From contig JAIXWG010000063.1 of assembly GCA_027482245.1 (NCBI GenBank), positions 1 to 64,000 on the forward strand: a stretch of DNA of 64,000 nucleotides. Direction: 5' to 3'. This document shows, piece after piece, positions 56,122 through 63,849 of the stretch. The stretch comes from Acetobacteraceae bacterium (lineage in GTDB: Bacteria; Pseudomonadota; Alphaproteobacteria; Acetobacterales; Acetobacteraceae). The notes below the pieces were generated by a model. That model was not told the origin of the DNA. It worked only from the letters and a program-made list of their open reading frames with translations, and searched no databases. Position 1 is the stretch's first letter. Each line of letters opens with the position of its first letter. The translations under genes were made by a program, and so were the position numbers.

Positions 56122-57666
56122 ATGCCCGATTTCACGCGACGCGGCGCCGCGCGCCACATGCTCATCTCCGACGGCATCCGTGCCTCCGCGGGGCGTACCC
56201 CGGATCGCATTGCGATGCGGGAAAGCGGGCGGTCGCTGACCTATGCGCGGCTGGTCGATCGCATCGGGCGCGTCGCGAACCTGGTGTATGCGGGGCTCGG
56301 CCTGCGGCATGGCGAACGCGCGGCGGTATTCTCTGCGAACTGCCTCGAATACATGGAGATCGTCTGCGGCATGGCGGAAGCCGGCGTCGCCGCGGCCACC
56401 ATCGGCCCCGCCGCCGCACCGCCCGAGATCCGCTTCATCGTCGAGGATAGCGGCGCCCGCGTGATGTTCGTGAGCGCGGCGCTGGAGGAGGTGGCGCGCG
56501 CCGCCGCGCCCTCCGTCGAGCGCTTCGTCGTCATCGGCCCGGCCTATGAGGCCCTGCTGGCGGAGGCCTCGCCCGGCCCCTGCCCTGTCGAGGTCACGGA
56601 GCACGACATCTTCTCCGTCCCCTACACCTCCGGCGCCACGGGCCGGCCGAAGGGCGTGCAGCTGTCGCATCGCGGCCGGGTGCTGTCGGGCTATGCGATG
56701 GCGGGCGAGCATCGCTGCTACACGCCGGAGGATCGCGCCGTCGCCACCACGCCGATGTTCCATGGCGCGGGGTTCCTGATGGCGCTGACGCCGATCTGGT
56801 TCGGCGGCCAGGTGGAGATCCTGCCGCGCTTCGACATCGAAAGCCTGATGGGCACGATCACGAGCTTCCAGGCGACCAGCGCCTATATCGTGCCGGCGCA
56901 TTTCGCCGCGCTCTTCGCGCTGCCGGAGCAGAAGCGGGCGCAGTGGGACATGCGGTCGATGAAGGCCGCCATCAGCGGCACGGCGCCGCTGCCGCAGGCC
57001 ACCAAGGAACGCATCGTCGCCTATTTCGGCGAGGGCAAGCTGTTCGAGCGCTACGGCACGACGGAGACCTCCATCGCCACCTCGCTCGGCCCGCGCGACC
57101 AGCTGCGCAAGCAGGCCTGCGTCGGGCTTCCCTATCCCGCGACGCAGATCCGGATCTGCGACGGCGACGGGAACGAGGTGCCGCAGGGCGAGGTCGGCGA
57201 ACTCTGGGTCTCCTCCCCCTACATGTTCTCCGGCTACCTCAACATGCCGGAGGCGACGGCGGCCGGCACGCGGGGCGACTGGTTCGTCACCGGCGACCTG
57301 GCGCGGCAGGATGAGGAAGGCTTCGTCTACCTGGTCGATCGCAAGAACGACATGGTCATCAGCGGGGGCGAGAACATCTACCCGCGGGAGGTGGAGGAGG
57401 TGATCCTGGCCCATCCCGCCGCCGCCGAATGCGGCGTGACCGGCGCGCCGCATCCCTATTTCGGGGAGGCCGTGACCGCCTTCGTCGTGCTGCGCCCCGG
57501 CATGAACGTCGATGCCGCCACGCTGACGGCGCTCTGCCGGGAGAAGCTGTCCCGCTACAAGGTGCCGAAGGAGATCCGCTTCGTGGAGACGCTGCCGCGC
57601 AACAGCATGGGCAAGGTGCTGCGGCGCGAATTGCGGGCGCGGTTGATCGCGGAGTCTAAGGCCTGA
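56122..57666 (+). CDS. Class I adenylate-forming ligase (long-chain acyl-CoA synthetase-like)
   Basis: 514 residues. P-loop YTSGATGRPKG near 173, A5 motif ERYGTTETSIA near 310, hinge GDLARQDEEGFVYLVDRKNDMVISGGENIYPREVEE near 391-426, and catalytic Lys in RNSMGKVLRREL near 495 are intact. It would convert a carboxylic acid to its CoA ester. It is monocistronic, divergent from the cupin gene, and its last 11 bases overlap the convergent soxA gene. Confidence 0.9.
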   Translation: MPDFTRRGAARHMLISDGIRASAGRTPDRIAMRESGRSLTYARLVDRIGRVANLVYAGLGLRHGERAAVFSANCLEYMEIVCGMAEAGVAAATIGPAAAPPEIRFIVEDSGARVMFVSAALEEVARAAAPSVERFVVIGPAYEALLAEASPGPCPVEVTEHDIFSVPYTSGATGRPKGVQLSHRGRVLSGYAMAGEHRCYTPEDRAVATTPMFHGAGFLMALTPIWFGGQVEILPRFDIESLMGTITSFQATSAYIVPAHFAALFALPEQKRAQWDMRSMKAAISGTAPLPQATKERIVAYFGEGKLFERYGTTETSIATSLGPRDQLRKQACVGLPYPATQIRICDGDGNEVPQGEVGELWVSSPYMFSGYLNMPEATAAGTRGDWFVTGDLARQDEEGFVYLVDRKNDMVISGGENIYPREVEEVILAHPAAAECGVTGAPHPYFGEAVTAFVVLRPGMNVDAATLTALCREKLSRYKVPKEIRFVETLPRNSMGKVLRRELRARLIAESKA

Positions 57667-58378
57667 CCGCGGGAGTCTCGATGGCCATGCCAGCGGCGCG
57701 GTCGTTCAGGAAAATCTCCAGCGAGACGTACTCGGCCGCGCCATAGGCGAAGGGCTCCGACCGCACGCCCGTCATGCAGCCGCGCAGCCTTCGTTGCAGC
57801 GACCCCACGCCCTGCCATTCCAGTCGGTAGAGCGGATAGCCCGTGGGATGCGCCTGCGGGATCACGCTGCCGGCCAGGCGCCTGCCCGCATTGTCGTCGT
57901 GGCACTGGACGCACGACAGGTCGAGCTGCCCCCGGCGTTCCTCGTACAGCGCGCGTCCCTGCGCCAGTGCCGGCGCCAGGCGCGGATCCGTCGGCCGGCT
58001 GATCGGCAGGCCGCGCGATTGGTGCGCGACATAGGCGGTCAGCGCCAGCAGCGCCTGGCTCTCCCGCGCCGGGGGCGTCGCGCGCTGGTGGGTCTCGACG
58101 CAGTTCGCGATGCGGCCGGCGAGGTCGATGGGCGCGCCCCGCGCCTCGTCCCAGGCAGGATAGCGCGTGGCGACGCCGCGCATCGAGGCTTCGGTATGAC
58201 AGGCGGCGCAATCGCGGTTGAAGCGTTCCTCGCCCTCCGCCACCCAGAGCATGCCGGGGTTCTGCATGTCGTCGCGCTGCATGGCCTGCGTCTCCCGCGC
58301 CATGTCCTCGAAGCCCGAACGCCGGTCCTGCGCAGAGGCGGGCAGCGCCAGCAGCAGCAGCGCAAGGGCGCGCCTCAT
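57656..58378 (-). CDS. soxA: Sulfur-oxidising cytochrome c subunit SoxA (diheme)
   Basis: 240 residues with a signal peptide (MRRALALLLLALPASAQ). Two heme-binding motifs, CAACH (57-61) and CVQCH (about 155-159), and the distal-ligand Cys in RLRGCMTGVRSEPF near 198 identify a diheme SoxA. With SoxX it attaches thiosulfate or another sulfur substrate to SoxY in the periplasm. It is the last gene of the operon and overlaps soxZ by four bases. It ends against the convergent ligase gene. Confidence 0.92.
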   Translation of the reverse strand: MRRALALLLLALPASAQDRRSGFEDMARETQAMQRDDMQNPGMLWVAEGEERFNRDCAACHTEASMRGVATRYPAWDEARGAPIDLAGRIANCVETHQRATPPARESQALLALTAYVAHQSRGLPISRPTDPRLAPALAQGRALYEERRGQLDLSCVQCHDDNAGRRLAGSVIPQAHPTGYPLYRLEWQGVGSLQRRLRGCMTGVRSEPFAYGAAEYVSLEIFLNDRAAGMAIETPAVRP

Positions 58379-58695
58379 GTGACCTCGATCGGGCGCGTCT
58401 CCGTCTGCGCGAAGCCGTTGTCGCCCTCCCAGGTCATCGTCACCGTGCCGGTTTGCGTCGCGACGGTGGTGAAGGAGAGGAAAGGGTTGGCGGCGATGGC
58501 GGGCGATAATTCCGCGCTGAAGACGACAGCGCCGTCATAGGTGCAGGTGAAGCGGCGGATGATGTCGCGCGGCATCACGTCCCCCTGCGCATTCGGGCGA
58601 TAGCCCGTCTCCATCGTGTGCTGGATCAGCGTGCGGATGGTGATGATGTCGCCGCGCTTCGCGCTGCGCGGCACGTTGATCAGGACGCGGGCCAT
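58375..58695 (-). CDS. soxZ: Sulfur carrier complex subunit SoxZ
   Basis: 106 residues. The all-beta SoxZ protein is recognisable by ARVLINVPRSAKRGDIITIRTLIQHTMETGYR and FTCTYDGAVVFSAELSPAIAANPFLSF. It forms the SoxYZ heterodimer that carries sulfur intermediates in the periplasm; SoxZ has no signal peptide of its own and is co-exported with SoxY. It is three bases downstream of soxY. Confidence 0.93.
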   Translation of the reverse strand: MARVLINVPRSAKRGDIITIRTLIQHTMETGYRPNAQGDVMPRDIIRRFTCTYDGAVVFSAELSPAIAANPFLSFTTVATQTGTVTMTWEGDNGFAQTETRPIEVT

Positions 58696-58698
58696 GGC

Positions 58699-59139
58699 TC
58701 AACCCTCGATGCAGGCGGCAAGCGTGACGACGACCTGCGCGCGATCCGACCAGAAGCTGCCATCGGACAGCGCGGCCACCGCCAGCAGCGTCTGCGACGT
58801 CGCGAGCCGGATATGGGTGGAGAGCAGCGCGCGGCCGGCGCGGGGGCCGAGCTGCACGGTGATGACATGCGGCTGCGGGTTGCGTTCGTTGAAGACGGCG
58901 ATGGCGCGGACGTGGTCGGCTTCCGTCATCGGGCTGTCCACGATGACGGAGAGCGGCACGGTGTTGCCGTTCTCCACCAGCGGCGAGATGTCGAGCGCGA
59001 CGCGGCCGGGCGTGACCGCGGCGCCGCCGGTGAAACCGCGCACGGCCTCCGCCATCGCCTCCGGCGTCGCCGCGGCGTGACGCGGCATCAGCAGCAGGGC
59101 GGGCGCGGCCAGCAGCAGCCGGCGGGTCGGCACGATCAT
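58699..59139 (-). CDS. soxY: Sulfur carrier protein SoxY with unusual C-terminus
   Basis: 146 residues. A twin-arginine-like N-terminus (TRRLLLAAPALLLMPRHAAA) precedes the SoxY immunoglobulin-like domain (VALDISPLVENGNTVPLSVIVDSPM, VRAIAVFNERNPQPHVITVQLGP). Canonical SoxY ends GGCGG, with the Cys on a flexible arm carrying the sulfur. Here the end is LAACIEG, so Cys143 is kept but both flanking Gly pairs are lost and one residue is added. The protein may still be a carrier, with changed partner or substrate. It overlaps soxX by four bases. Confidence 0.9.
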   Translation of the reverse strand: MIVPTRRLLLAAPALLLMPRHAAATPEAMAEAVRGFTGGAAVTPGRVALDISPLVENGNTVPLSVIVDSPMTEADHVRAIAVFNERNPQPHVITVQLGPRAGRALLSTHIRLATSQTLLAVAALSDGSFWSDRAQVVVTLAACIEG

Positions 59140-59573
59140 CGCGGGGCTTCCTCGCGCAGGGTCAGCAGATAGGCGATCACGTCCTCGATCTCCTGCGCCG
59201 CCAGGATGGGGCGGCCGCGCTGGGCGGGCGCCACGCGGTGCAGGCCCTCGGTCCGGTAGTAGGAGGGCATGATGCTGTCCGGGTTCAAGCGCTTGCCATC
59301 CACCAGGCGCGTGCGGAGTTCGGCGGCGGACCAGCGGAGGCCGGCGCCATCCAGGGGCGGCGCCAGATTGCCCTGGAAGCGTTCCTCCGGGATGGGGCCG
59401 GAATGGCACAGCAGGCAGAGGCCGCGCGTGCGGTCGGCGACGATGGCGCGGCCGTTTCGTGCGTCGCCGGGGGTGGAGGTCAGGGGTACTTCGTCGGCGC
59501 GGGCGGGGGTGGCGAGGAGGAGGAGGGTCAGCACGAAAGCGGCGTGTGTGGCCGCACGTGCGGCATCCCCCAC
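59136..59573 (-). CDS. soxX: Sulfur-oxidising cytochrome c subunit SoxX (monoheme)
   Basis: 145 residues from GTG 59573. A signal peptide (THAAFVLTLLLLATPARA) is followed by a class I cytochrome with CLLCH (53-57), the SoxX-type GNLAPPLDGAGLRWSAAELRTRLVDG and the Met ligand in SIMPSYY near 101. It partners SoxA. The start codon and the GGAGGG ribosome-binding site lie inside a 23-bp perfect palindrome (59567-59616); a TTG at 59660 would give a longer leader reading through that palindrome. Confidence 0.88.
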   Translation of the reverse strand: MGDAARAATHAAFVLTLLLLATPARADEVPLTSTPGDARNGRAIVADRTRGLCLLCHSGPIPEERFQGNLAPPLDGAGLRWSAAELRTRLVDGKRLNPDSIMPSYYRTEGLHRVAPAQRGRPILAAQEIEDVIAYLLTLREEAPR

Positions 59574-59616
59574 CCCGACCCTCCCCCGCGCTTGCGGGGG
59601 AGGGTCGGGGTGGGGG
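59567..59616. repeat. Perfect 23-bp palindrome with GCTT loop at the soxX start
   Basis: The arms 59567-59589 and 59594-59616 are exact reverse complements around GCTT, with C- and G-rich runs (CCCCACCCCGACCCTCC). Similar palindromes are common as REP-like intergenic elements in high-GC alphaproteobacteria. This copy overlaps the translation start of soxX rather than lying between genes. Confidence 0.8.
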
Positions 59617-59672
59617 TCTGCACAACCCGATGCCTGTTCCGCGGCGGACACCGAACTCAACGGCCCATCATC

Positions 59673-60905
59673 CTACCCGAACACATCGGCCGTGATCGTC
59701 GCGAACCAGTCCTCGGCGTAGCGCGCCTCCGCCGCCCGCACGCCGGCGGGTGCGTCCAGCGGGCTGGTGCCGCCGGCGTTCGGCACGTCGGTGAGCAGCC
59801 CGTTCGCGGGCTGATAGACGCCCGCGACGGAGATACCGTACTCCGGTGCCACCAGGCTGTAGCAGGTGTTCAGCAGCTTCGGCGCCTGCACGGCACGCCC
59901 GGCCAGCAGCGCCACCATGGCCGCGGCGGCGACCCGCGCCTGCGCATTGGCGGCGAAGGCGGATTTCGGCATGGCGCCGGCGATGATGGCGTCCCCGATC
60001 ACATGCATCCCGGGGACCTGGCGGCTCTCGAAGCTGGCGGGATCGACGGGGCACCAGCCGGAGCGGTCGGCGACGCCGGCCGCCTGCGCGATCGCGCCGG
60101 CGCGCTGCGGCGGGATGACGTTCAACACCGCGCCATCCTGCGTGCCGAAATCCGTGGTGACGGTGCGGCTGCGTGCATCCACTTCCGTCACCCGGCCGCC
60201 CATGGCGAGGGGCACGTATTCCAGGATGCCGGGATAGAGGCTCGCCCAGGCGGCCTCGAACAGCCGCTGCTTGCTGAACACGTCCTTCGCATCCAGCACC
60301 AGCAGCTTTGACCGAGGCTTCTGCGTCTTCAGGAAATGCGCGATCAGCGAGGCGCGCTCATAGGGCCCGGGCGGGCAGCGATAGGGGTTGGGCGGCACCA
60401 CCATCACGACTGTGCCGCCGTCCGGCATGGCGCGCAGTTGCGCCGCCAGCAATTCGGTCTGCGCGCCGGCCTGCCAGGCGTGCGGCATGACCTCGGCCGC
60501 GGCCTGGTCGTAGCCTGGCAGAGCGTCGTAGCGGATCTCGATGCCCGGCGAGAGCAGCAGCCGGTCGAAGGGCAGCGCCGTGCCATCGGCCAGCGTCACG
60601 CGCCGGGATTCCACCCCCACCGCGCGCTGGTGCACCACGGCGATGCCCTCCGCCCGCAGCGCATCGTAGCCGAAGCGCTGCGCCGCCATCGGGCGGAGGC
60701 CCGCGATGACGGCGTTGCTGAAGGGACAGGCGGTGTAGGTGGCGTTGGCCTCCACCAGCGTCGTCGCGATACCGGCGCGGTGGAGCGACCGCGCGGCGGT
60801 GGCGCCGCCGAAGCCGCCGCCCACGACCACGACGCGGGGCGCTGCCTGCGCCAGCACCGGGGCCGGCAGCAGCGCCGCGGCCAGGGCGCGCCGCGCGATC
60901 CTCAT
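59673..60905 (-). CDS. soxF: Sulfide dehydrogenase flavoprotein subunit (SoxF/FccB-like)
   Basis: 410 residues with an N-terminal signal (MRIARRALAAALLPAPVLAQ) and an FAD motif VVVVGGGFGG (25-34). Cysteines expected in flavocytochrome c sulfide dehydrogenase are present: TACPFSN (Cys60, equivalent to the flavin-linked Cys), PYRCPPGPYERA near 176, and NTCYS in the C-terminal part. It oxidises sulfide or polysulfide in the periplasm and passes electrons to a c-type cytochrome, probably the product of the next-upstream gene, which it overlaps by four bases. Confidence 0.9.
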   Translation of the reverse strand: MRIARRALAAALLPAPVLAQAAPRVVVVGGGFGGATAARSLHRAGIATTLVEANATYTACPFSNAVIAGLRPMAAQRFGYDALRAEGIAVVHQRAVGVESRRVTLADGTALPFDRLLLSPGIEIRYDALPGYDQAAAEVMPHAWQAGAQTELLAAQLRAMPDGGTVVMVVPPNPYRCPPGPYERASLIAHFLKTQKPRSKLLVLDAKDVFSKQRLFEAAWASLYPGILEYVPLAMGGRVTEVDARSRTVTTDFGTQDGAVLNVIPPQRAGAIAQAAGVADRSGWCPVDPASFESRQVPGMHVIGDAIIAGAMPKSAFAANAQARVAAAAMVALLAGRAVQAPKLLNTCYSLVAPEYGISVAGVYQPANGLLTDVPNAGGTSPLDAPAGVRAAEARYAEDWFATITADVFG

Positions 60906-61168
60906 CGGACGATCCAGGCGGCGATGGCCTGGGTCTCCTCCTCGGTGAAGCCGCGCGCAAGGCGGTCCATCAGCGTCGCGGGGCGCGTGCCCTCCCGGAA
61001 GGCGCGCATCGCCGCCGCGACTTCCGCCGCATCGCGCCCGCGGAGCGAGGGGATGGCGGCGTCGCTGCGCGTCGGCGCATGGCAGCCGAGGCAGGTGGAG
61101 GCGCCCGGGGGCGCCTCCTGCGCATAGGCTGGCGCCGCCACCAGCAGCGCCAGCGCAAGCGCCCTCAC
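60902..61168 (-). CDS. Small monoheme cytochrome c (SoxE/FccA-like)
   Basis: 88 residues from GTG 61168, overlapping the upstream gene (GTGA). A short signal peptide (MRALALALLVAAPAYAQ) is followed by CLGCH (26-30) and a C-terminal FTEEETQAIAAWI helix typical of class I cytochromes. Adjacency to the SoxF-like gene suggests that it is the cytochrome subunit of a flavocytochrome c. It could also accept electrons from the molybdenum hydroxylase encoded upstream. It is smaller than diheme FccA. Confidence 0.85.
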   Translation of the reverse strand: MRALALALLVAAPAYAQEAPPGASTCLGCHAPTRSDAAIPSLRGRDAAEVAAAMRAFREGTRPATLMDRLARGFTEEETQAIAAWIVR

Positions 61169-63372
61169 GTCCGGCGCAGATCCGCCTGGTGCAGCGGAAG
61201 CTGGCGCACCCGCTTGCCCGTCGCGGCGAAGATCGCGTTCAGCACGGCGGGCGCGGCGACGGCGATGGTCGGCTCGCCCACGCCGCCCCAAAAGCCGCCC
61301 GTGGGGGCCACGATCGTCTCCACCTTCGGCATGTCGATCATGCGCATGACGGGATAGGTGTCGAAGTTCGTCTGCTCGATGCGGCCGTCCTTCACCGTGC
61401 ATTCGCCATACAGCGCGGCGGAGAGGCCATAGACGAAGCTGCCTTCCACCTGCGCCGCGATCTGCTGCGGGTTCACCGCATAGCCCGGGTCGGTGGCGGC
61501 GATGATGCGGTGCACCTTCACCTCCCCGGCGTCGCTGACGGAAACCTCCGCCACCGCGGCGACGTAGCTGCCGAAGCCATGGGTGACGCAGATGCCGCGA
61601 TGCACGGCCTGGCCGTTCACGGGCTGCGCCGGCGTGCCCCAACCCGCGCGTTCCGCGACGGCGTTCAGCACGGCCAGGTGCTTCGGGTGGTTCGCCATCA
61701 GGGACCGGCGGAAGGCCAGCGGGTCCTTCCCCGTCGCATGCGCCACCTCATCGATGAAGCATTCGAGGTAGATGGCGTTCTGGTTCAGGTTCACGCCGCG
61801 CCAGAAGCCCGGCGGCACATGCGGGTTGCGCATGGCGTGGTCGATCAGCAGGTTCGGGAAGGTGTAGCCGATATCGGCCTCACCCCCGCTGGCGTTGAGC
61901 CCCTGGAAGACCACGGGGTCGCGGCCATCCCGGATGTTCTGCGGGAAGATGCCGGCCACGATGGACTGGCCGCTGATGCGCATGTGCAGGCCGGTGATGT
62001 TGCCCTGCGCGTCGAGCCCCGCCGTCATCTTGCACATCGTCACGGGGTGGAAGCGGCCCTGGAGCATGTCCTCCTCCCGCGTCCAGAGGAGCTTCACGGG
62101 CGTGCCGGGCATCTGCTTGGCGATGTCCACGACCTGGCGGACCCAGTCATGCACCGCGCCACGCCGGCCGAAGCCGCCGCCGAGGTGGATCTTGTGGATC
62201 TCGCAGCGCGCGGGCGGCAGCCCTGCGGCTTCCGCCGCGGCGGCGTGCGCCGCTTCGCCATTCTGGGTCGGGGTCCAGACCTCGCAGCGCTCCGGCGTCC
62301 AGATGGCGGTGGCGTTCATCACCTCCATGCAGGCGTGGTTCTGGTGGGGGTAGCCGTAGACGGCCTCCACCTTGCGCGCGGCACCGGCAATGGCGGCGGG
62401 GGCGTCGCCGTTGCGGTTGCCGACGGCGGCCTGCGGCGCATCGAAGCCCGCCACCATGACCTCCCGGAAGGAGGCGGAGGACGCGTTGGCGTGCTCCCCG
62501 TAGTTCCAGGTGATCTTGAGCGCATCCAGCGCCTTCTTCGCGTGCCACCAGGTATCGGCGACGACGGCGACGGCATCCTGGCCCACGCGCAGCACGCGCT
62601 TCACGCCGGGCATGCGCTCGGCCTCCGCGCTGTCCACCGCGGCGACGGTGCCGCCGAAGACGGGGCAGGCATGGATGGCGGCGTTCAGCATCCCCGGCAG
62701 CTTCAGGTCCATGCCATAGACCTGGCTGCCATTCAGCTTGGCGCGGGTGTCGAGCCGCGCGACGGGCTGGCCGATCAGCTTCCAGTCGCGCGGGTCCTTC
62801 AGCGGTACATCGGCCGCGGCCGGCGCGGGCAGGCGCATGGCGGCTTCGGCGACCGCGCCGAAGGTCGTGGTGCGGCCCGAAGGCTGGTGGGTGATGATGC
62901 TGTTGGCCGCGCGGCATTCACCGGCGGGCACGCCCCAGGCATTGGCGGCGGCCTGCACCAGCATCATGCGCGCCGCGGCGCCGCCCTTCCGGACGTATTC
63001 GTTGCTCTCCCGGATGCCACGGCTGCCGCCGGTGGACATGCTGCCCCAGACGCGGCCGCGCGCCAGGTTCTGGCCGGGGGTCGGGTATTCCGTGGTGACC
63101 TTGGCCCAGTCGCATTCCAGCTCCTCGGCCACCATCTGGGCGAGGCCCGTCAGCGTGCCCTGCCCCATCTCCGACCGCGCGATGCGGATGATGACGGTGT
63201 CGTCGGTCTTCACGACGACCCAGGCATTGACCTCCGGCGTCGCCGGCGCAGCGGCACCCTGGGCGAGGGCCTTGGTGGGCGCGGGGAAGCGGAAGCCGAA
63301 GGTGAAGGCGCCGGCGGCAGCGGCGGCGGTGCCCAGCAGGCCCCGGCGCGACGGCTTGGTGATGGCGTTCAT
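61165..63372 (-). CDS. Molybdenum hydroxylase large subunit (IorB-like), Tat-exported
   Basis: 735 residues. A Tat signal (PSRRGLLGT, 7-15, then a hydrophobic stretch) precedes the aldehyde oxidase/xanthine dehydrogenase molybdopterin-binding domains. Landmarks are SEMGQGTLTGLAQMVAEEL near 65, GGGFGRRGAVHDWV near 405, and the catalytic Glu in GGVGEPTIAVAAPAVLNAIF near 705. It matches isoquinoline 1-oxidoreductase beta subunits, which lack a FAD subunit and pass electrons to cytochrome c. Its gene overlaps the cytochrome gene and lies upstream of soxFXYZA, which is unusual. The substrate is not resolved. Confidence 0.9.
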   Translation of the reverse strand: MNAITKPSRRGLLGTAAAAAGAFTFGFRFPAPTKALAQGAAAPATPEVNAWVVVKTDDTVIIRIARSEMGQGTLTGLAQMVAEELECDWAKVTTEYPTPGQNLARGRVWGSMSTGGSRGIRESNEYVRKGGAAARMMLVQAAANAWGVPAGECRAANSIITHQPSGRTTTFGAVAEAAMRLPAPAAADVPLKDPRDWKLIGQPVARLDTRAKLNGSQVYGMDLKLPGMLNAAIHACPVFGGTVAAVDSAEAERMPGVKRVLRVGQDAVAVVADTWWHAKKALDALKITWNYGEHANASSASFREVMVAGFDAPQAAVGNRNGDAPAAIAGAARKVEAVYGYPHQNHACMEVMNATAIWTPERCEVWTPTQNGEAAHAAAAEAAGLPPARCEIHKIHLGGGFGRRGAVHDWVRQVVDIAKQMPGTPVKLLWTREEDMLQGRFHPVTMCKMTAGLDAQGNITGLHMRISGQSIVAGIFPQNIRDGRDPVVFQGLNASGGEADIGYTFPNLLIDHAMRNPHVPPGFWRGVNLNQNAIYLECFIDEVAHATGKDPLAFRRSLMANHPKHLAVLNAVAERAGWGTPAQPVNGQAVHRGICVTHGFGSYVAAVAEVSVSDAGEVKVHRIIAATDPGYAVNPQQIAAQVEGSFVYGLSAALYGECTVKDGRIEQTNFDTYPVMRMIDMPKVETIVAPTGGFWGGVGEPTIAVAAPAVLNAIFAATGKRVRQLPLHQADLRRT

Positions 63373-63384
63373 GATGCGCGCTCC

Positions 63385-63849
63385 TCAGCCGGCCGCGCCG
63401 GCGGTGCCGGCGGCGCGCTGGATGCCCGCCATGACGCGGTTGTAGGTGCCGCAGCGGCAGATGTTGGTGACCTCCTCCCGGATCTGCTGTTCCGTCGGGC
63501 GGGGCGTCGCGGCCAGCAGGGCGGCGGCGGCCATGATCATGCCGGACTGGCAGAAGCCGCATTGCGGCACGTCGAGTGCCAGCCAGGCCTGCTGGATCGG
63601 GTGGCTGCTGTCGGGGGACAGGCCCTCGATCGTCACGATCTTCTGGTTCTCGTCGAAGGCGGAGACGGGCATGGAGCAGGCGCGGACCGCGGCGCCATCG
63701 ACATGCACGGTGCAGGCGCCGCATTGCGCGATGCCGCAGCCATACTTGGTCCCGGTGAGTTCGAGCTGTTCGCGCAGCACCCAGAGCAGGGGGGTGTCAT
63801 CCTCCACCTGCACGTCGATCACGCGCCCGTTCACGTTGAGCTTGGCCAT
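63385..63849 (-). CDS. [2Fe-2S] subunit of the molybdenum hydroxylase (IorA-like)
   Basis: 154 residues. The plant-type [2Fe-2S] cluster cysteines are in CGIAQCGAC (38, 43, 46) and VRAC (58); the second cluster ligands are CGFC (about 97, 100) and CRCGTY (about 131, 133). This is the small subunit of xanthine-oxidase-type enzymes. It has no signal peptide and is probably exported by hitchhiking with the Tat-bearing large subunit. It begins the eight-gene operon. GGGAGAG precedes the ATG. Confidence 0.9.
   Translation of the reverse strand: MAKLNVNGRVIDVQVEDDTPLLWVLREQLELTGTKYGCGIAQCGACTVHVDGAAVRACSMPVSAFDENQKIVTIEGLSPDSSHPIQQAWLALDVPQCGFCQSGMIMAAAALLAATPRPTEQQIREEVTNICRCGTYNRVMAGIQRAAGTAGAAG

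Follow-up and report, generated by a model that had tools for sequence, protein, structure and literature searches.

In the canonical model of Sox thiosulfate oxidation, SoxB and SoxCD act after the loading step performed by SoxXA, as outlined in PMC5336275. In 2013, Kappler and colleagues described in Starkeya novella a second sox cluster, soxX2Y2Z2A2F2, together with a xanthine-oxidase-family enzyme, Snov_1975/1976 (PMC3797975); the passages of that paper devoted to the cluster give it neither SoxB nor SoxCD and treat it as a duplicate sox set. A 2024 study of the SoxY family (PMC11237559) placed divergent SoxY proteins near alcohol or methanol dehydrogenases and, in its sections on these proteins, proposed carbon or organosulfur roles for them. 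Here we analyse a stretch of 64,000 nucleotides from an Acetobacteraceae bacterium (contig JAIXWG010000063.1), hereafter the window, in which eight minus-strand genes (57656-63849) follow the order iorA-iorB-cytC-fccB-soxX-soxY-soxZ-soxA. An original prediction, made from the sequence, had proposed that these genes form a Sox operon in which a molybdenum hydroxylase, IorAB, takes the place of SoxB and SoxCD. The Ior label comes from that prediction and presumably stands for isoquinoline 1-oxidoreductase. Each of the eight genes was found at the predicted position and strand, in agreement with matches to Pfam and NCBIfam families. We tentatively favour, with a little less than even confidence, a SoxB-free periplasmic Sox variant in which IorAB would act on the cargo of an altered SoxYZ arm; both the contact and the chemistry we infer from sequence comparison.

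Probably the best clue to a changed partner enzyme, one absent from the original prediction, is the tip of the SoxY arm, where AACIE stands in place of GGCGG and is both bulkier and acidic. The window SoxY (58699-59139, minus strand; C-terminus ...VVTLAACIEG) reaches 199 bits, over a cut-off of 172, with TIGR04487, a family that already names this feature ("SoxY-related AACIE arm protein"); its arm, AACIEG, fits A-A-C-x-E, and the protein falls below the cut-off for true SoxY, TIGR04488 (87 vs 125 bits). SoxY was then scanned for in 84,980 species genomes, and the best 80 of 233 relatives were kept, picked by similarity to the window SoxY and independently of the arm. All 80 carry an arm of the form A/P/G-A-C-V/I/L/T/A-E, and Ala142, Cys143 and Glu145 are each present in at least 98% of the aligned sequences. 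According to their records, many of these relatives belong to Acetobacteraceae and Roseomonas kin, Methylobacterium, Microvirga, Bradyrhizobium and Reyranella, and seven are betaproteobacterial (Methylibium, Massilia, Herminiimonas, a Burkholderiaceae bacterium, Rubrivivax, Rhodoferax and Rhizobacter).

Gene order could be counted in 59 of the 80 loci, the other 21 being left out for want of sufficient flanking sequence. Upstream of soxY, iorA and iorB occur together in 58 of the 59 and soxX in all of them; soxZ adjoins soxY in 56 and soxA follows it in 53. For the lone locus with no iorAB upstream (L072), a 58% IorB lies on a different contig, and six Methylobacterium loci (L025, L028, L033, L036, L047 and L050) show no soxA after soxZ, each of these genomes having a SoxA over the cut-off outside the stretch examined. 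A cluster peculiar to one strain is thus rejected, since iorAB stays with sox genes across many genera, and the check that the original prediction had proposed, a conserved iorAB-sox order in related genomes, came out in its favour. The flavoprotein gene fccB and the cytochrome gene cytC lie upstream of soxY in 41 and 38 of the 59 loci, respectively, and are therefore both accessory; the counts for cytC and for soxZ, obtained by simple frame searching, are perhaps too low. Around the operon, no additional conserved family was found in more than 17 of 82 loci, some of the largest being opposite-strand shadow frames.

None of the 80 stretches around soxY contains soxB. In the window genome (99.6% complete, 5.44% contaminated, 71 contigs), SoxB (TIGR04486) has no match anywhere and SoxC a single match of 36 bits against a cut-off of 420, SoxD not having been searched for. 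By these genome profile searches, the idea that a soxB, or a soxC over the cut-off, lies somewhere else in the genome is rejected, and the description of the operon as one without SoxB/SoxCD stands to that extent. The original prediction had named two results as fatal to it, linkage in this strain alone and soxB and soxCD elsewhere in the genome; the first is contradicted by the many genera and the second by the lack of SoxB and of any SoxC over the cut-off. SoxB was sought in 66 other genomes with the operon, the loci covered being 47 of the 80 and a further 20 from the class sample, with L049 excluded; it scored over the cut-off in 22 of them, with a contig-end fragment in one more, and by hand count in 2 of the 16 genomes with a completeness of 90% or more and a contamination of 5% or less, bearing in mind that draft genomes may lack genes. 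The original prediction is supported in part, by the lasting company of iorAB and sox genes across genera; its proposal that IorAB plays the part of SoxCD is conjecture.

Another contig of the window genome (L120 8520-10916; G000 contig C28, about 42.5-44.9 kb) carries a second set, cytC-fccB-soxY-soxZ, whose SoxY arm reads GGCLS and which adjoins neither SoxB nor IorB. This set without iorB, like the presence of fccB and cytC in many of the 59 loci, would suit a reading in which two uncoupled steps act on one organosulfur compound, IorAB oxidising the carbon part while SoxXYZA and flavocytochrome c take the freed sulfur. We regard this as unlikely: fccB is not upstream in 18 of the 59 operons and SoxB is in view at none of the 80 loci, so that in those operons the freed sulfur would have no evident outlet, and the change in the arm would be left unexplained.

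The relation between arm and partner was examined with 129 SoxY matches from 385 genomes of the same class, about 8 kb being read on either side where the contig allowed. A neighbour was a gene within 7.5 kb, and SoxB was recognised with three references (L121, L123 and L126) whose mutual match is 51-69%. Thirty-seven of the 129 lie near iorB, and the residue before the arm Cys is Ala in 36 of these and Gly in one; all 38 that lie near soxB have Gly before the Cys and end in GGCGG. No SoxY among the 129 has both neighbours, and the 54 with neither comprise nine with Ala and 45 with Gly. Eight genomes hold one SoxY of each kind, and all eight obey the rule that Ala goes with iorB and Gly with soxB, SoxB adjoining the second, normal-arm SoxY. 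Three GGCGG-armed proteins (L218, L224 and L225) have no soxB within the stretch examined. Furthermore, iorAB also stands beside a distant SoxY clade, with arms GACS/SGCI in L168/L169 and GACGG in L279, L281 and L282; with this group, on a branch that is fully supported in the SoxY tree, at least one iorB-linked lineage stands well apart from the main clade. The absence of SoxB and of true SoxC, the altered arm, and the fact that IorAB is the one enzyme at nearly every locus are most simply read as an arm that serves IorAB.

The small subunit of this enzyme, the iorA-like product (63385-63849, minus strand; 154 amino acids), is a [2Fe-2S] protein of the xanthine oxidase family, matching Pfam Fer2_2 at 93 bits and Fer2 at 37.5 bits, and its eight cysteines recur in 98-100% of the 64 relatives aligned. 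The large molybdopterin subunit, iorB-like (61165-63372, minus strand; 735 amino acids), matches MoCoBD_1 at 116 and MoCoBD_2 at 107 bits, and its N-terminus is of the twin-arginine type as judged from sequence. Glu700 of its GVGEP motif, which we take to be the catalytic Glu of the xanthine oxidase family, is shared by 98% or more of the 66 relatives aligned. Separate [2Fe-2S] and molybdenum-cofactor-binding subunits and the Glu motif place IorAB in the IorAB/AldH type of that family. In the main clade of IorB, 43 positions are conserved in at least 95% of 90 sequences, near-copies included, and in at most 10% of 10 outgroup sequences, one of which (L170) groups with a sox-linked 48% type on the IorB tree. 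Several of these positions fall in the stretch after GVGEP, which reads TIxVA in the clade and GTPPIAP in four of the 10 outgroup sequences, the others varying. In a FastTree phylogeny of 60 IorB rows, the betaproteobacterial sequences nest within an otherwise alphaproteobacterial clade, which points to horizontal transfer.

Several observations weigh against the coupling of IorAB to the SoxY arm. On a SoxY tree built with the arm excluded and from 103 of the 129 matches, the Ala state requires three changes and iorB linkage six, and an independent-pairs test on the same tree had no power; the 26 sequences left off are weak matches, for the most part long frames of the fused type, in which Gly precedes the Cys and both iorB and soxB are out of view. 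With so few independent events, a Fisher value of 3e-11 for arm against partner overstates independence, and as proof of the rule it is rejected on grounds of shared ancestry. Moreover, the nine SoxY with Ala before the Cys and no iorB in view suggest that Ala may mark the loss of SoxB, not the gain of IorAB. Four of these (L181, L095, L177 and L204) belong to the main clade and come from short contigs or split sets; the other five (L248, L250, L252, L256 and L273) have GACS arms, SoxX and SoxA lying near four of them. The GACS-armed proteins, with neither soxB nor iorB, are perhaps a further SoxB-less Sox variant.

Other observations concern the enzyme. The aldehyde dehydrogenase 8gy3 has GVTVVAP after GVGEP, and distant IorB proteins that adjoin SoxY (L163-L169) have no TIxVA; with so small an outgroup, the stretch is a mark of the clade and no proof of a new active site. 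Four main-clade IorB (L159, L160, L161 and L162) have no adjoining sox gene, the genome of L162 holding a soxXYZA set with an A-C arm on a separate contig (L177), and sox linkage switches no fewer than five times across the IorB tree, linked and unlinked copies being mixed outside the main clade. In one genome (G066; L158 7759-11913) the order is iorA-iorB-soxX-soxA; soxY and soxZ do not intervene, and the whole genome lacks a SoxY match, so that either SoxYZ is not always required or this operon is decaying. Finally, we know of no member of the xanthine oxidase family that oxidises sulfur or protein-tethered substrates.

Some of these points would fit a free-standing periplasmic dehydrogenase for aldehydes or N-heterocycles, served by SoxYZ, SoxXA and Fcc, which might for example clear damaging sulfide or thiosulfate, keep Mo=S sulfurated or carry electrons. 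The closest solved relative of IorB is indeed an aldehyde dehydrogenase large subunit (8gy3_C, 251 bits), aligned end to end over residues 4-734, and G066 retains iorAB-soxXA with no soxYZ. Fused SoxYZ-like carriers likewise adjoin pyrroloquinoline quinone (PQQ) alcohol or methanol dehydrogenases, and the sections of PMC11237559 and PMC12997753 that treat them suggest a protective or helper role for some. We nevertheless consider this account rather doubtful. An IorB match is present in 144 of the 385 genomes, yet just 37 SoxY matches lie near iorB, and the enzyme type in general therefore needs no SoxYZ helper; the strict conservation of the arm tip would also go unexplained. Near divergent loci, proteins with a sulfatase-modifying-factor (FGE) domain were seen beside IorAB-SoxYZ (L166 5445-6296 and L168 3410-4276), and a TonB-dependent receptor (L163 12505-14448) beside iorAB-soxYZA, possibly a hint at an imported substrate there.

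If IorAB does act on SoxYZ cargo, homology suggests that SoxXA would first couple a sulfur compound, R-SH, oxidatively to the SoxYZ arm cysteine. The arm, A-C-hydrophobic-Glu/Asp replacing G-G-C-G-G, would then hand the cargo to IorAB and not to SoxB/SoxCD, and the molybdenum enzyme would oxidise or hydroxylate the tethered cargo using water. Electrons would flow through the iron-sulfur clusters of IorA to the c-type cytochromes SoxX and SoxA, or to cytC where present; FccB and its cytochrome, where present, may treat sulfide or persulfide on SoxY or released from it. Since no component of the module could release sulfate by the known route, we favour an organic sulfur compound over thiosulfate as the probable cargo. 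Taken further, this scheme would amount to a second Sox pathway, in which a xanthine-oxidase-family enzyme working on organosulfur tethered to an A-C-x-E SoxY replaces SoxB/SoxCD and the arm serves as a routing code; such a generalisation is possible, and we hold it with distinct reserve. Were the coupling true, many bacteria that might pass for thiosulfate oxidisers on the strength of their soxAXYZ genes would do something else, probably with organic sulfur, and IorAB would be, to our knowledge, the first xanthine-oxidase-family enzyme known to act on a protein-tethered substrate. A simple sorting rule would follow the residue before the arm Cys, Ala or Gly, together with the neighbour, iorB or soxB.

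The remaining genes of the operon retain the marks of their families. cytC (60902-61168, minus strand), a small monohaem cytochrome c with a probable GTG start that overlaps the iorB stop, matches Cytochrome_CBB3 at 26.2 bits, slightly below the Pfam cut-off of 27, and its haem cysteines, Cys29 and Cys32, are found in 48 of 48 aligned relatives. The fccB/soxF-like gene (59673-60905, minus strand) encodes a flavoprotein of flavocytochrome c sulfide dehydrogenase, with FCSD_central at 161 bits, FCSD-flav_bind at 93 bits and solved relatives 5n1t_A (441 bits) and 1fcd_A (390 bits). It thus has the FCSD flavin-binding domains of that enzyme and also its cysteine pair, Cys177 and Cys348, conserved in 53 of 53 aligned relatives and presumably the redox pair. 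soxX (59136-59534, minus strand), the monohaem cytochrome of SoxXA, scores 77 bits with TIGR04485 (cut-off 61); soxZ (58375-58695, minus strand) scores 85 bits with TIGR04490 (cut-off 76). The dihaem cytochrome of SoxXA, soxA (57656-58378, minus strand), scores 201 bits with TIGR04484 (cut-off 110) and has solved relatives 1h31_A (119 bits) and 2c1d_A (113 bits). SoxY, SoxZ and SoxA also match their Pfam families. All 73 aligned relatives of SoxA share its four CxxCH cysteines, and 99% of aligned relatives share the cysteine of RRLRGCMTGVR (Cys201).

Four of the seven gene junctions are 4-base overlaps, GTGA at iorB-cytC and ATGA at cytC-fccB, soxX-soxY and soxZ-soxA, and the gaps are 12 nucleotides at iorA-iorB and 3 at soxY-soxZ, which suggests a single transcript with translational coupling. 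The operon ends where the 3' end of soxA overlaps the end of a convergent ligase gene by 11 nucleotides. The exceptional junction is fccB-soxX, whose gap holds a perfect inverted repeat of 23 bp with a 4-nucleotide loop (59567-59616, minus strand), the sole perfect hairpin in the window at a stem of at least 14 and a loop of 3-8. It has one exact copy in the genome, which rules out a genome-wide repeat, and is possibly an element of messenger RNA processing or stability. Its position, together with a signal-peptide-like N-terminus, makes GTG 59534 most likely the start of SoxX, rather than TTG 59660 of the listed open reading frame. The stretch searched in Falsiroseomonas stagni (L009) contains a hairpin of 11 bp that is akin to it in sequence; L010-L012 showed 8-bp hairpins only.

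SoxA, SoxX, SoxY and FccB all retain their haem or cysteine positions among aligned relatives, and we take the conserved non-haem cysteines of this set to be catalytic. Such conservation of haem and presumed catalytic cysteines, and of gene order, in many genera of alphaproteobacteria and several of betaproteobacteria argues against a truncated thiosulfate-type Sox cluster that is functionless at present, which we consider very improbable. In Starkeya novella, however, the sections of PMC3797975 on expression report very low transcripts for the cluster and no detectable SoxAX or SoxYZ, a result that also counts against a working IorAB-SoxYZ couple; its authors suggested that the cluster is functionally insignificant there, or relevant under other conditions.

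Earlier work had in part come close to this system. The SoxY tree of PMC11237559, as described there, excluded sequences with no GGC motif, so that A-A-C arms would drop out of it. The gene set is described in PMC3797975 and does not appear in the relevant sections of PMC12997753, PMC4782131, PMC5336275, PMC11237559, PMC5894208 or PMC6397845. Within the open-licence literature, outside which most subscription journals lie, no paper contains both 'SoxY' and 'AACIE', and no report of the arm-partner rule or of the breadth of the module was found.

Compared with the canonical Sox thiosulfate pathway, the window operon shares SoxX, SoxA and SoxZ, each over its cut-off, and the carrier cysteine of SoxY. 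It differs in including a xanthine-oxidase-family enzyme, in that its genome has no SoxB match and no SoxC over the cut-off, and in a SoxY that does not end in GGCGG. Like the Starkeya novella cluster, it combines soxXYZAF with a xanthine-oxidase-family molybdenum enzyme and lacks soxB/soxCD, a likeness of printed gene content (PMC3797975) and not of sequence. Unlike the window genome, which has no SoxB match, Starkeya novella has a complete sox cluster too, and the published account of its second cluster, in the passages concerned, makes no mention of the arm. The quinoprotein-associated SoxYZ-like carriers (TIGR04557; SoxYZ-S2/S4 in the corresponding part of PMC11237559) likewise stand beside a periplasmic dehydrogenase that does not count among the known sulfur enzymes. 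These are fused SoxYZ proteins near PQQ enzymes and accompanied by SoxH, whereas the window has separate SoxY and SoxZ, SoxXA and a molybdenum enzyme; indeed, its SoxY and SoxZ score 46.6 and 37.2 bits with TIGR04557, far below the cut-off of 140. With molybdenum hydroxylases of the IorAB/AldH type, the window enzyme has in common its two subunits, the [2Fe-2S] and molybdenum centres and the full-length match to 8gy3_C, and main-clade IorB departs from them by its own conserved residues, judged against the 10 outgroup sequences, and by its sox neighbours. Taken together, the cluster is real and conserved, was in part already known, and represents a variant Sox system in which a new partner enzyme is strongly hinted at.

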